A stretch of DNA of 64,000 bases from Paucidesulfovibrio longus DSM 6739 (lineage in GTDB: Bacteria; Desulfobacterota; Desulfovibrionia; Desulfovibrionales; Desulfovibrionaceae). This document shows positions 4,981 through 11,256 of this stretch, piece after piece. A program made the translations under genes and the position numbers. The stretch is taken from positions 1 through 64,000 of the forward strand of contig NZ_ATVA01000014.1 in assembly GCF_000420485.1 (NCBI RefSeq), written 5' to 3'. The notes under the pieces are model-generated. The model made no database searches. It was not told the DNA's origin and was given only the letters and a program-made list of their open reading frames with translations. Every line of letters starts with the position of its first letter. The first letter of the stretch is position 1.

Positions 4981-7761
4981 TCAGCCCATGAGGTTGAACA
5001 CGTCCAGGTTGAGGTCGTGGTGGTTGACGTGCTCGGTGATCCTGACATCCTTGTCCGCGCTGCGGGGCGAGGCGAGGTCCACGTACCGCGTCGGCACGCT
5101 GCGCAGCTTGGCGTCGTAGACGACCTTCACCAGCGGCTTCAGCGGCAGGGCCGGGTCCACGGACAGCACCACGCCGTGTTCCCCGCTGCTCAGCCGCACG
5201 AGGCTGCCCACGGGATAGATGCCCATGAACTTGATGAACCGTTCCACGGTTTCCGCATGGAGCTGCGTTCCGCCCATGCGGTAGATGCGGCTCATGGCCG
5301 CCGAGCCGGGAATGGGTCCGGCGTAGATCCGTCTGCTGGTCTGGGCGTCGAAGACCTCGGTCACGGAAACGATGGGCGTGAGCGGGTGCAGTTGCTCCTG
5401 GGTCAGGCTCTTGGGATAGCCGCTGCCGTCGGCCCGCTCGTGATGCTCGGCCACGATGCGGCCCACCACAGGATCCAGTGACGGGTAGGCCCGGAGCATG
5501 TCCGCGCCTTCTTCGGGATGCGCCCGCACGATCTTGTATTCCCGCTCCGTCAGCTTTCCCGGCTTGTTCAGGATCACCAGGGGAATGCGCGCGTTGCCCA
5601 GGTCGTGCAGCAGCCCGGCCAGCCCCACGAGCCGCATCTCCTCGCGGCTGCGGTCCATGTGGTGGGCCAGGGCGATGGAGAGGACCGAAACGTTGATCGG
5701 ATGGGTCAGGCTGAACTCGCCGAAATGGCGCAGCTTGAGCATGGAAGCCAGGGCCGTGCCGTTGCGTTCCAGGGACTGAATGAAGCGCTCCACCAGGGCC
5801 TCGGCGCGCTCCAGGTCGAGCTTGCCTTCCCGCCGGGCCAGCTCCAGGGCCTTGCGCTCGAACGCGAGCGCCTGGGCATAGAGCTTTTCCGCTTCGGGAA
5901 GTTCCCGCGCCAGGGAACCGATCTGCTCCTGCTGAAGCTGCTCGCGCCGGGCGCGGCGGGCCTTTTCGCGGGCGGCCTCCTCGGCCCTGCGGCGGCGCTC
6001 CTGCTCGGCCAGCTCGGCGGCCCGTTCCTTGAGGGCCTCTGTCCGGCGGCGTTCCTCCTCCTCGGCCTCGCGGCGCTGCCGCTCCTCTTCCCGCGCCCTG
6101 GCCTGGGCCTGCTCCCGGCGACGAAGCTCCATTTCCTCCTCGCGCCGGCGCGCCTCCTCTTCGGCCTTGCGCCGGGCCTCGGCCTCGGCACGCTCCCGCG
6201 CTTCCTGCTCGCTCTTGCGGCGGGCCTGCTCTTCGGCGTCCCGCTGCGCCTGTTCGCGTTCGCGGGCGGCCTGCTCTTCCTTGCGTCTGCGCTCCAGTTC
6301 GGCCTTGCGCGCCTGTTCCTCGGCCGCGCGGAGGCGTTCCTGCTCCTCGCGCCGGCGCGCCTCCTGTTCGGCCTTGCGGCGGGCTTCGGCCTCGGCCTTT
6401 TCCCGCGCTTCCTGCTCGGCGCGTTGGCGGGCCGCTTCCTGCTCGCGCCGGCGCGCCTCCTCCTGGAGCCTGCGCTTGCGGATTTCCCGCTGCCGCGCCT
6501 CCTCTTCGGCCTTGCGCGCCTCCTCTTCGGCCTTGCGTGCCGCCTCTTGCGCTTCCCTTTGCAGGCGCGCCCGTTCCTCGGCTTCCTGGCGGGCGCGTTC
6601 TTCCTCGGCCCGGCGGGCTGCCTGCTCTTGCGCCTGTTTTTTGGAGGCCTCGGCAAGATGGCGTTTCCGGAGAGCTTCCGCCCTTTTTTGCTCTTCCTCG
6701 GCCCGGAGGCGTTCAGAGCGAATGCGTTCGGCCTCGGCACGCCGGGCAGCCTCTTCGGCAAGCTGCCGGGATTTATCCTCGGCGAGTTTTTGTTCCTGGG
6801 CACGCAGGCGTTCAAGCCGCTCGGCTTCCTGGCGGCGAAATTCCTCTTCGGCCCGGCGGACGGCTTCCTGCTGCGCCCGCAGCCGCTCTTCTTCCCGAAT
6901 CCGCTCTTCTTCCCGTATTCGCTTCTCTTCCCGGACCCGCTTCTCTTCGGCGATCCTGCGGCGTTCCCGCTCCTTTCGCGCGGCTTCGGCCTCGGCCTGC
7001 TGCCGGGCCTTTTCCTCGGCCTGCCTGCGTTCCTGCAACGCCCGTTGCCGGGCTTCTTCTTCGGCTCTGCGGCGGGCCTCTTCCTCGGCTTGTTGCCGGG
7101 CTTCTTCCTCGGCCTTAAGACGGGCTTCTTCCTCGGCTCTGAGGCGGGCTTCGCGTTCCGCTGCGGCGCGCGCCGCGCGTTCCGCCTCCGCACGGGCGGT
7201 TTCCTCGGCCAGCTTCCGCTGCTGCGCCTCGCGGCGTTCCCGCTCGGCCTGCTCGGCCTTGCGCTTTTCCTCGGCTTGCTTTTCCTCGGCCCGGAGACGT
7301 TCGATCCGAATGCGTTCGGCTTCGGCGCGCCTGGCCGCCTCTTCGGCCTGCTGCCGGGCATTTTCCTCGGCGCGGCGCTTTTCCTCGGCCTGCCGTTTCT
7401 GCTCGCGCGCACGGGCCATGGCCGCTGCGCGGGCCGCCTCCTCTTCTTCCCGGCGGGCGCGGGCCTCGTCGTCCTTTCGGCGCTCTTCCTCCCGGCTGCG
7501 CTCCTCGGCCTTGCGCCGCTCGGCCTCGCCGCGCGACTGCTCCGCCTGCTCCCGCTTCCAGGCTTCGTAATCGAATTCCGGATCGATCATGACCTCGCTG
7601 ACGCCTTCGGGAATCAGGCGCTTCACGTCCTCCCAGGAATGGATCGGCTGGTTCACGATGGCGAACGGCTCCGCCTCGGTGCCCTTGCCGTACTGCACCA
7701 CGAACATGCCCTGTTTCAGGCTGATCTTCTTGACGATCTTCATCCTGCTGTTCGTGGTCAC
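4981..7761 (-). CDS. HD-GYP domain protein with a ~540-residue coiled coil
   Basis: The protein has 926 residues. Residues 7-65 resemble DUF3391, the usual N-terminal partner of HD-GYP domains. Residues about 70-610 are an uninterrupted Glu/Ala/Arg/Lys-rich coiled coil. An HD-GYP domain (family role: cyclic-di-GMP phosphodiesterase) runs from about 680, with HD at 719-720, HHERADGSGYP at 773-783 and a VFDAQTSRR motif. Two deviations are visible: HDxGK reads HDLGN, and the Asp of the usual ADxFDA motif is Glu (TEVFDA). Activity is therefore uncertain. The GTG start at 7761 has GGGGA upstream; ATG 7743 is the alternative. It is monocistronic or co-transcribed with the HAD gene 48 bases upstream. 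Confidence 0.85.
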   Translation of the reverse strand: MTTNSRMKIVKKISLKQGMFVVQYGKGTEAEPFAIVNQPIHSWEDVKRLIPEGVSEVMIDPEFDYEAWKREQAEQSRGEAERRKAEERSREEERRKDDEARARREEEEAARAAAMARAREQKRQAEEKRRAEENARQQAEEAARRAEAERIRIERLRAEEKQAEEKRKAEQAERERREAQQRKLAEETARAEAERAARAAAEREARLRAEEEARLKAEEEARQQAEEEARRRAEEEARQRALQERRQAEEKARQQAEAEAARKERERRRIAEEKRVREEKRIREEERIREEERLRAQQEAVRRAEEEFRRQEAERLERLRAQEQKLAEDKSRQLAEEAARRAEAERIRSERLRAEEEQKRAEALRKRHLAEASKKQAQEQAARRAEEERARQEAEERARLQREAQEAARKAEEEARKAEEEARQREIRKRRLQEEARRREQEAARQRAEQEAREKAEAEARRKAEQEARRREEQERLRAAEEQARKAELERRRKEEQAAREREQAQRDAEEQARRKSEQEARERAEAEARRKAEEEARRREEEMELRRREQAQARAREEERQRREAEEEERRRTEALKERAAELAEQERRRRAEEAAREKARRARREQLQQEQIGSLARELPEAEKLYAQALAFERKALELARREGKLDLERAEALVERFIQSLERNGTALASMLKLRHFGEFSLTHPINVSVLSIALAHHMDRSREEMRLVGLAGLLHDLGNARIPLVILNKPGKLTEREYKIVRAHPEEGADMLRAYPSLDPVVGRIVAEHHERADGSGYPKSLTQEQLHPLTPIVSVTEVFDAQTSRRIYAGPIPGSAAMSRIYRMGGTQLHAETVERFIKFMGIYPVGSLVRLSSGEHGVVLSVDPALPLKPLVKVVYDAKLRSVPTRYVDLASPRSADKDVRITEHVNHHDLNLDVFNLMG

Positions 7762-7809
7762 GCCGATTCCCCGCTTTCCGATCTTGGTCTTTTCGTCCGG
7801 GCCGCGGCC

Positions 7810-8481
7810 TTAGAGCCGCCCCTCGGCCGCGAGCCGCCGCACCAGAGCCTCGGCATCCGTCTCGATGTAGTCGGGATGGAACGCTTCCAGCGCCTCCCGG
7901 CCCAGGTTCCCGCTGAGCACTCCGGCCGTCCGGCAGCCCGCGGCCCTGCCCGCCGCGATGTCCATGCCGTGGTCCCCGACCATGAGCGCGCTTCCCGGCT
8001 CCACGCCGAGCCGCTCCAGGGCCTGGAGCACGTGCGCCGGGTCCGGCTTGAGCGCGCGGGCGTCCTCGCGCGGCAGGAACACGCCGCATCGCCGGACTAT
8101 CTCCGGAAAGACCGTGCGCACGGCCGCCGTGGAATTGCGCGTGATCACGCCCACGCCCACGCCCCGCGCCGCAAGTTCCGCCAGCAGCGGCTCGGTGAAG
8201 GCAAAGAGCCTGCCCTCGCGGGCCGCGTCCAGCTCCGTGGCGTTGACCACCAGCCGCGCCCGCGAATGAAATTCCAGGCCCATGTCGCGGCCTTCGTTCT
8301 CTTCCACTTCCGCGGCCAGCTCGGCCATCCATTCCAGCACGGGCATCCCGTTGGCTTCGGGCTCCTCGCCCAGAAACGCGGCGGCCAGCGCCCTGACCCG
8401 CCGCTTCATCAGATCGAAATCGATGGTCAGCTCGGCGAGCGTCCCGTCGAAATCAAAAATTATGGCCCGAATCTTTCCCAT
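7810..8481 (-). CDS. HAD-superfamily hydrolase, phosphoglycolate-phosphatase-like
   Basis: The 223-residue protein has the four HAD motifs: DFDGT at residues 10-14 with the nucleophile Asp, VITRNS as motif II, the Lys of ALKPDP as motif III, and GDHGMD as motif IV. The helical cap lies between motifs I and II, as in phosphoglycolate phosphatase and related class I phosphatases. The true substrate is unknown. I chose ATG 8481 because it puts motif I at the usual distance from the N-terminus. In-frame GTG codons at 8487 and 8523 would add 2 or 14 residues of low-complexity Gly/Ser. Confidence 0.8.
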   Translation of the reverse strand: MGKIRAIIFDFDGTLAELTIDFDLMKRRVRALAAAFLGEEPEANGMPVLEWMAELAAEVEENEGRDMGLEFHSRARLVVNATELDAAREGRLFAFTEPLLAELAARGVGVGVITRNSTAAVRTVFPEIVRRCGVFLPREDARALKPDPAHVLQALERLGVEPGSALMVGDHGMDIAAGRAAGCRTAGVLSGNLGREALEAFHPDYIETDAEALVRRLAAEGRL

Positions 8482-8601
8482 GCTCACGCCTGCTCCGGTT
8501 CCGCTTCCGCTTTCCGCGTTCACGCTTGAAGTTCATGCAATTTCGATCCTGCCGCGCGCACTTCTTGCGATTCCTCGCGGCTCGGAGTAAATATCCAATT
8601 C

Positions 8602-10083: not shown

Positions 10084-11256
10084 CTAGAAGAAGCAGTCGA
10101 TCTCCTCGACCGGCTGGGTCAGGCTGAAGTTCCCGTCCAGAATCCACTTCTTGAGCTCGTCGGCCACTTCCACGGACATGGGATAGGAAGTCAGCGGCAC
10201 GGTGGCCACCTTCTTGCCGTCGAGCACGATCTCCCCGGACTGGAGTTCCTCGAAGGTCACATGTCCGAGCACGCGGGGCACGCCGTTGGGATAATCATAG
10301 CCGTAATCGCGCACGGGCACCTGGATGTCCGCGTTGGACACGCCCGTATGCCAGGCGATCTCCTCGTTGAGGATGGGAATGGGGATGCCCACGCCCACGG
10401 CCAAGGAGCAGCCGTAGCCCACGATGGACACGCCGCGCACATAGCGCGGGTTCATCTTCTTCATGTCGCCCTTGAGCATCAGGGTTCCGGACGGCGTGGT
10501 CGGAATGCCGTACTCGTTGCGGGGCGGCTTGGGGTTGTGCTGCGTTCCGGAGCCGATCACATAGCCCACGCCGCCGCCCAGGAAGATGCGCGTGCCCAGG
10601 CCGATGGTCTTGAACAGCGGATCGTTGAACAGGGGCGAAAGCTCGCCCGCCGTGGCGTAGTTGGCGTTGCGGGACTTGGGCTTCAGCGGGCCCATGTAGG
10701 TGTAGATGGTCCGGCTGGTCAGGTTCACGGCGCAGTTGTAGTTCTGGTAGCAGTTGCGCGGGTTGAGCAGCCAGGCATTGGGCAGGTCCGCCAGGGTCAC
10801 GTCCTTGTCGAGCTTGCGGCGCGGATAGCAGTCCGTTCCGTAGGCGCGGGCCTTGAGATGCACGGCCTTGCCGCGCAGCAGGTCTTCGATGACGTGGCCG
10901 CCGCCGTAGACGAAGCGGCCGGGATAGACCTTGTTCAGGGGATCGTCCTCGGCGGGCTCGGTGGCGCCCATGTAGCCGTCCACCGCGGCCAGGCCGGAAT
11001 AGGCGGGCACGTTGTTCAGCCAGAGCTGGGAAACCTTCATCACGGGCGGTTCCTGCCCGATGTTGAAGAGCATGCCGGAAGAGCACATGGTCGAGAACGT
11101 TCCCGTGGTGACCACGTCCACTTCCTTGGCCGCCTTGACCTTGCCGAGGCGGCGCACTTCCGCGGTCATTTCTTCCGCGTTGAGCACGACCGCCTTGCCT
11201 TTGCGGATGCGGTCGTTGATTTCCTGGATGGTTTTATTGACCTGATGGGTGGCCAC
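10084..11256 (-). CDS. DUF39 homocysteine biosynthesis protein
   Basis: The 390-residue protein matches the DUF39 (COG1900) family. Work in methanogens and Desulfovibrio has tied this family to homocysteine formation from aspartate semialdehyde and sulfide, bypassing the usual acyl-homoserine route (established for the family; the reaction details here are inferred). Visible traits are Cys-containing NPRNCYQNYNC, GGGVGYVIGSGTQHNP, and a C-terminal VPLTSYPMS. The CBS or ferredoxin C-terminal domain of some relatives is absent. GTG start at 11256 is preceded by GGAGG. It diverges from dnaA with 228 bases between them. The ferredoxin-type partner protein known from other species is not adjacent. 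Confidence 0.85.
   Translation of the reverse strand: MATHQVNKTIQEINDRIRKGKAVVLNAEEMTAEVRRLGKVKAAKEVDVVTTGTFSTMCSSGMLFNIGQEPPVMKVSQLWLNNVPAYSGLAAVDGYMGATEPAEDDPLNKVYPGRFVYGGGHVIEDLLRGKAVHLKARAYGTDCYPRRKLDKDVTLADLPNAWLLNPRNCYQNYNCAVNLTSRTIYTYMGPLKPKSRNANYATAGELSPLFNDPLFKTIGLGTRIFLGGGVGYVIGSGTQHNPKPPRNEYGIPTTPSGTLMLKGDMKKMNPRYVRGVSIVGYGCSLAVGVGIPIPILNEEIAWHTGVSNADIQVPVRDYGYDYPNGVPRVLGHVTFEELQSGEIVLDGKKVATVPLTSYPMSVEVADELKKWILDGNFSLTQPVEEIDCFF

Follow-up and report, generated by a model that had tools for sequence, protein, structure and literature searches.

The window analyzed here is the whole 64,000-nt stretch of Paucidesulfovibrio longus DSM 6739 (GCF_000420485.1, contig NZ_ATVA01000014.1), a genome designated G000 below. 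It encodes an HD-GYP protein in which a DUF3391-like domain is separated from the stalk helix and HD-GYP domain by a very long charged stretch, and next to its gene lies that of a HAD-IA phosphatase (Table 1). Residues of the protein are numbered from the ATG. The first-pass annotation had chosen the upstream GTG as the start. This choice is plausible, since GGGGA is found upstream of the GTG and a TNSRM/TNTRM stretch ahead of the ATG is common to this protein and its relative in genome G023.

Table 1. Features of the HD-GYP locus, in window coordinates; residues are numbered from the ATG and site residues are paired with their PmGH equivalents.
Feature	Position	Strand	Remarks
Whole gene	4981..7761	-	926 codons from GTG; 920 from the ATG at 7743
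N-terminal DUF3391-like domain	7552..7761	-	Residues 1-64 from the ATG; PF11871 match of 67-aa fragment
Charged helix, single-alpha-helix pattern, degenerate repeats	5926..7551	-	Residues 65-606; 542 aa
Stalk helix and HD-GYP domain	5224..5925	-	Residues 607-840; Pfam HD_5, AlphaFold, Foldseek
Small C-terminal beta domain	4984..5223	-	Five strands (residues 848-906); FIKFMGIYPVGSLVRL just ahead of and into the domain
Gly675 for PmGH Asp183	5719..5721	-	D in 74/78 relatives
Asn717 for PmGH Lys225	5593..5595	-	HDLGN; K in 76/78 relatives
Glu796 for PmGH Asp305	5356..5358	-	TEVFDA; D in 76/78 relatives
Ala808 for PmGH Lys317	5320..5322	-	K in 64/78 relatives
HAD-IA phosphatase	7810..8523	-	Adjoins the HD-GYP gene in many relatives

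Both ends of the protein are as the first-pass annotation had described them. The HD-GYP end matches Pfam HD_5 with 83.9 bits. The full-length protein has no match to Pfam DUF3391 (PF11871), but its 67-residue N-terminal fragment alone scores 29.1 bits against a cut-off of 27.8, over model positions 8-56, and 20 of 22 aligned members match the model at E<=1. In the coil-less protein L120 the model covers residues 1-99, starting in the N-terminal domain and reaching into the segment that precedes the HD domain; the full-length protein thus probably escapes detection because the coil interrupts the stretch that the model covers. Inspection of the sequence by eye revealed no membrane anchor. Third-position GC (GC3) is 0.88 in the N-terminal domain, 0.77 in the coil and 0.89 in the core, compared with 0.81-0.86 in four neighbor genes. 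A 1003-codon open frame runs antisense to the coil (window 5518-8529, plus strand) and is probably a by-product of E/R/A-rich codons.

The 542 residues of the charged stretch include one Gly and no Pro, and consist of 30% E+D, 31% R+K, 22% A and 6.1% ILVMFYWC. Opposite charges are paired at i,i+4 in 90 and 99 instances, against 50 in shuffled sequences, while like charges are paired in 22, against 99. Charge autocorrelation is negative at lags 3 and 4 (z -9.1 and -12.3) and positive at lags 7 and 8 (6.1 and 6.7). This pattern is beyond chance, and it recurs in the coil of G023 and in a 164-residue part of the coil of a third genome, G001. Hydrophobic residues, by contrast, show neither heptad nor hendecad periodicity and no power at period 3.5 in the coil of the window. 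Half or more of the a/d positions are hydrophobic in 6 of its 515 28-residue segments, the other 509 falling below, and in 0/400 segments of the G023 coil; ILVMFYWC are entirely absent from the 164-residue G001 part. Alanine recurs every four residues.

With 6% hydrophobics, no heptad seam and strong i/i+3 and i/i+4 pairing of opposite charges, the stretch looks, from its sequence, like a single alpha-helix rather than a coiled coil. Single alpha-helices are commonly misidentified as coiled coils, according to PMC5347031. Of the roughly 540-residue continuous coiled coil reported in the first-pass annotation, the long charged stretch nearly free of helix breakers stands, and the coiled coil lacks support from the sequence. 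An AlphaFold monomer of the full length makes 493 of the 542 residues helical at modest confidence (pLDDT 74.8, pTM 0.47). The helix has three low-confidence breaks in this model (residues 190-211, 365-380 and 520-530). They contain neither Pro nor Gly and are therefore taken as low-confidence model artefacts rather than kinks. No solved structure was related to the coil by sequence at 1e-6. In the DNA, the coil consists partly of degenerate duplications with spacings of 207 and 588 bases, including two 114-base copies that lie 588 bases apart and are 81% alike.

Natural single alpha-helices typically span 40 to about 200 residues and have a persistence length of 15 nm, as given in PMC5347031. 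If this is a true single alpha-helix, it lies far beyond the usual range. For 542 residues we compute a contour length of 81.3 nm and an rms end-to-end distance of 44.6 nm, so that a helix of this kind would be semi-flexible, with some 81 nm of contour spanning about 45 nm. The rigid 80 nm rod proposed in the first-pass annotation is rejected as stated, with the caveat that two paired strands would be stiffer than one.

The HD-GYP fold is preserved. The AlphaFold model of the core has a pLDDT of 93, Foldseek matches it to PmGH, PA4781, DvhD and Bd1817, and the first HD-GYP helix (residues 587-639) is a straight continuation of the coil. We mapped the site on PmGH numbering, with no gaps around it. 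The equivalents of H189, H221, D222, H250, H276, H277, G284, Y285, P286, D308 and R314 are all kept; the protein thus has the HD dyad, second His, HH pair, GYP and fold of an HD-GYP member, but Asn replaces the Lys of HDxGK and Gly the Asp of the D183/K225 pair. The first-pass annotation had correctly read HDLGN and the Asp-to-Glu change of ADxFDA, and had missed the loss at Asp183. At the E185 position the protein has Phe, and 75/78 relatives have Tyr; a Y/F subfamily at this position is known (PMC4159591). In that paper, alanine at D183, K225 or H250 abolishes PmGH activity, D305A lowers it strongly with some kept, E185A also retains some, and R314A and K317A change it little.

The other two coil-bearing proteins have altered sites as well. 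That of G001 carries D183G, D305E, R314Q and K317S and keeps HDIGK; that of G023 carries K225R, H250R, R314T and K317R. The site alignment drew on loci L001-L003, L011-L060 and L118-L149, with L061-L117 and L150 upward left out, and kept 79 proteins after removal of duplicates and of alignments covering <=200 residues. A set of 39 columns is conserved in at least 95% of coil-less relatives. There the coil-bearing proteins show 4, 5 and 5 departures, and 74 other proteins at most 4 (median 0); two paralogues from the same genome, L001 and L003, were placed outside this count and show 12 and 13. Both are coil-less, and site loss alone is therefore not unique to the coil-bearing proteins. L003, a DUF3391/HD-GYP protein, has R, Q and GRP for D183, K225 and GYP, and L001, of the same architecture, has E and N for D183 and D305. 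The Lys-to-Asn change is also seen in unrelated bacteria: the Paenibacillus HD-GYP proteins L085, L086 and L089 read HDIGN.

A search with the core found it in frame in 36 of 149 near genomes (E<=1e-60), a two-row profile in 59 of 288 family genomes (E<=1e-70) and, at the scale of the phylum, the core matched 280 of 395 genomes (E<=1e-35). Most hits in the near and family genomes have frames of 340-500 residues. The N-terminal domain, used as query, was found in 35 of 348 order-level genomes, with long frames in G000 (942) and G023 (819) and a frame in G001 that runs into a contig end. The first-pass annotation had proposed a search for the same architecture in relatives; among those examined, a long coil is present only in G000, G001 and G023, and most are coil-less. 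G023, which belongs to another genus, has a coil of 427 residues, and that of G001 is broken by two contig ends, leaving 88 + 164 residues visible. Two members of one genus group, G261 and G256, have longer frames; the one checked, in G261, results from an open frame upstream and has no coil. Outside family f1, none of 8 long frames chosen among the matches listed contained a charged coil.

Coil-less orthologues of many genera adjoin the same HAD phosphatase, and a functional link between the two genes is possible. At this locus the N-terminal domain is followed by a linker in G297 (95 residues) and in G305 (90 residues), and E, K, R, Q, A and D together make up two thirds of these residues. 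The N-terminal motif is missing from G310, G321 and G304, where a charged linker is present, and from G308, G309, G313 and G298, where the linker is missing as well. In G002, of the same genus as P. longus, no HD-GYP gene is found at the locus, and hisI and hisG come immediately after the HAD gene (L160 5880-6420; hisI was read by eye). Linker length at one and the same locus thus takes values of 0, about 90, 427 and 542 residues, and for this reason we reject the coil as a ruler. The first-pass annotation would have given up its reading if coil length varied freely and c-di-GMP was efficiently hydrolyzed; as regards length, the observations go against it.

A single clade (support 98/94) unites the three coil-bearing proteins, and their HD-GYP domain has long branches and diverges fast. 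The N-terminal domain of the window protein, in contrast, is 84% identical to that of G001 and 62% to that of G023. Identities in the N-terminal domain and core of the three coil pairs are 0.85 versus 0.54, 0.58 versus 0.41 and 0.54 versus 0.40, giving ratios of 1.33-1.58, whereas in 595 coil-less pairs the median ratio is 0.72 and the maximum 1.32; N-terminal identity exceeds that of the core in 29/595. This comparison used a fixed N-terminal stretch from 38 proteins, 4 being missed; an earlier version had left out 7 orthologues without the N-terminal motif and shortened some N-termini. Because the N-terminal domains are more alike than the cores in all three coil pairs, the N-terminal domain is the part being kept in this clade. 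The coil arose once in our sample, and its association with site loss therefore rests on one clade.

Several known proteins resemble parts of this one. Bd1817 of Bdellovibrio and VC2497 of Vibrio share its order of domains, DUF3391 and then HD-GYP (the DUF3391 of Bd1817 is stated in PMC12943098), but the available accounts of them describe no interdomain helix of 427-542 residues, and the GYP Tyr, kept here, is absent in Bd1817. Natural inactive DUF3391/HD-GYP members are known (PMC4159591, PMC4212101). The HD-GYP domain of DvhD, from Desulfovibrio vulgaris, is reported to bind c-di-GMP without hydrolyzing it, with stalk helices that move on binding (PMC13090378). Like the window protein, DvhD comes from a sulfate reducer and has a stalk helix leading into its HD-GYP domain; unlike it, DvhD is bound to the membrane, carries Cache and PAS domains and lacks both the HD and the HH metal ligands, which the window protein keeps. 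With HD and HH kept and a base contact lost, a DvhD-type receptor role is, by analogy, putative only.

The coil itself is E/R/K/A-rich with opposite charges at i/i+3 and i/i+4 and no hydrophobic seam, as in myosin-6 and AEEEXXX single alpha-helices. It is richer in Arg than in Lys, and Arg-rich designs aggregated (PMC5347031). The match to TolA (NCBIfam PRK09510.1) is weak, at 17 bits against a cut-off of 213, and the TolA ends were not matched. TolA has a charged helical middle domain, and the signaling helix is reportedly about 40 residues long. Among titles and abstract beginnings of the open-access papers listed, an HD-GYP protein with a long charged helix was not found.

The reading we prefer is that the HD-GYP domain is catalytically dead or crippled and persists as a module for binding or scaffolding, carried by a long helical tether; judged from sequence, we would put its probability at roughly 0.55. 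It would probably represent an enzyme turned into something that binds or holds, within one small clade. The gene is the local version of a DUF3391/HD-GYP gene common in the Desulfovibrio family. Ahead of its stalk helix the linker probably lengthened in this clade, in part through duplicated repeats, into the very long charged stretch that we read as a single alpha-helix, and the HD-GYP domain of these proteins has lost residues that c-di-GMP hydrolysis requires, here both D183 and K225. Such a protein would no longer hydrolyze c-di-GMP well; its conserved N-terminal domain might hold a partner, and the HD-GYP dimer would serve as a binding or scaffold module at variable distance, on a semi-flexible helix continuing its own stalk. 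The loss of D183 and K225, each essential in PmGH (PMC4159591), lends support to a non-enzymatic role, as do the site losses in all three coil proteins, and to this extent the first-pass suggestion of a structural receptor instead of an enzyme gains ground. Its c-di-GMP part is weakened too, because the R314/K317 base contacts are changed partly or wholly in all three.

Against a dead site, HD, HH and GYP are unaltered, as are the equivalents of H189 and D308, and metal may therefore still bind; G001 keeps HDIGK, and Glu for Asp305 is a conservative change. These points favor instead a working or slow phosphodiesterase acting on c-di-GMP, pGpG or cGAMP with a substituted site, the coil being only a spacer. 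PmGH D305A and E185A retain some activity (PMC4159591), and VCA0681 is described as active though without one residue that PmGH needs (PMC4212101). We nevertheless consider an enzyme rather unlikely: two residues essential in PmGH are gone together, the residues lost from this site differ among the three coil-bearing proteins, and VC2497, which has the DUF3391/HD-GYP architecture and bears one such change, was inactive (PMC4212101).

A two-stranded coiled-coil rod of an HD-GYP dimer, as first proposed, is quite improbable for the charged stretch. HD-GYP stalk helices do dimerize (PMC13090378), the alanine spacing recalls an Ala-richer designed helix thought to pair via an Ala seam (PMC5347031), and six segments reach half a/d occupancy; the lack of a hydrophobic period, the 509 segments below half occupancy and the absence of ILVMFYWC from the 164-residue G001 part speak against pairing, as does the G023 coil. 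It is also unlikely that the coil reflects neutral expansion of a low-complexity repeat in a gene that is being lost. The internal duplications, the fast-diverging HD-GYP domain and the absence of the gene from the sister species G002 would fit such a history, but the frame stays open over its 926 codons, GC3 stays high in the N-terminal domain and core, the N-terminal domain is closely conserved with G001 and the same charge pattern is found in three species, one of them in another genus.

A more specific form of the preferred reading, a tethered non-enzymatic module, would make the protein a putative receptor for c-di-GMP or another nucleotide, in which a dead HD-GYP dimer on a single alpha-helix of some 540 residues, acting as a semi-flexible tether, sweeps tens of nanometers around a partner that the newly conserved N-terminal domain would hold. 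An enzyme would then have become a long-reach sensor or cross-linker in one clade; we regard this as speculative and on balance doubtful. The locus itself offers a natural series, from no linker through about 90 to 427 and 542 residues, with and without an intact site. This series makes testable the effect of helix length in HD-GYP signaling and the conversion of an enzyme domain into a binding module.

Elsewhere in the window, the protein encoded at 10084-11256 (minus strand) matches 'methanogenesis marker 16' at 124 bits, with a cut-off of 364, and is 75-77% identical in G025 and G021, next to dnaA. We take it to be, probably, a member of the homocysteine-biosynthesis family.
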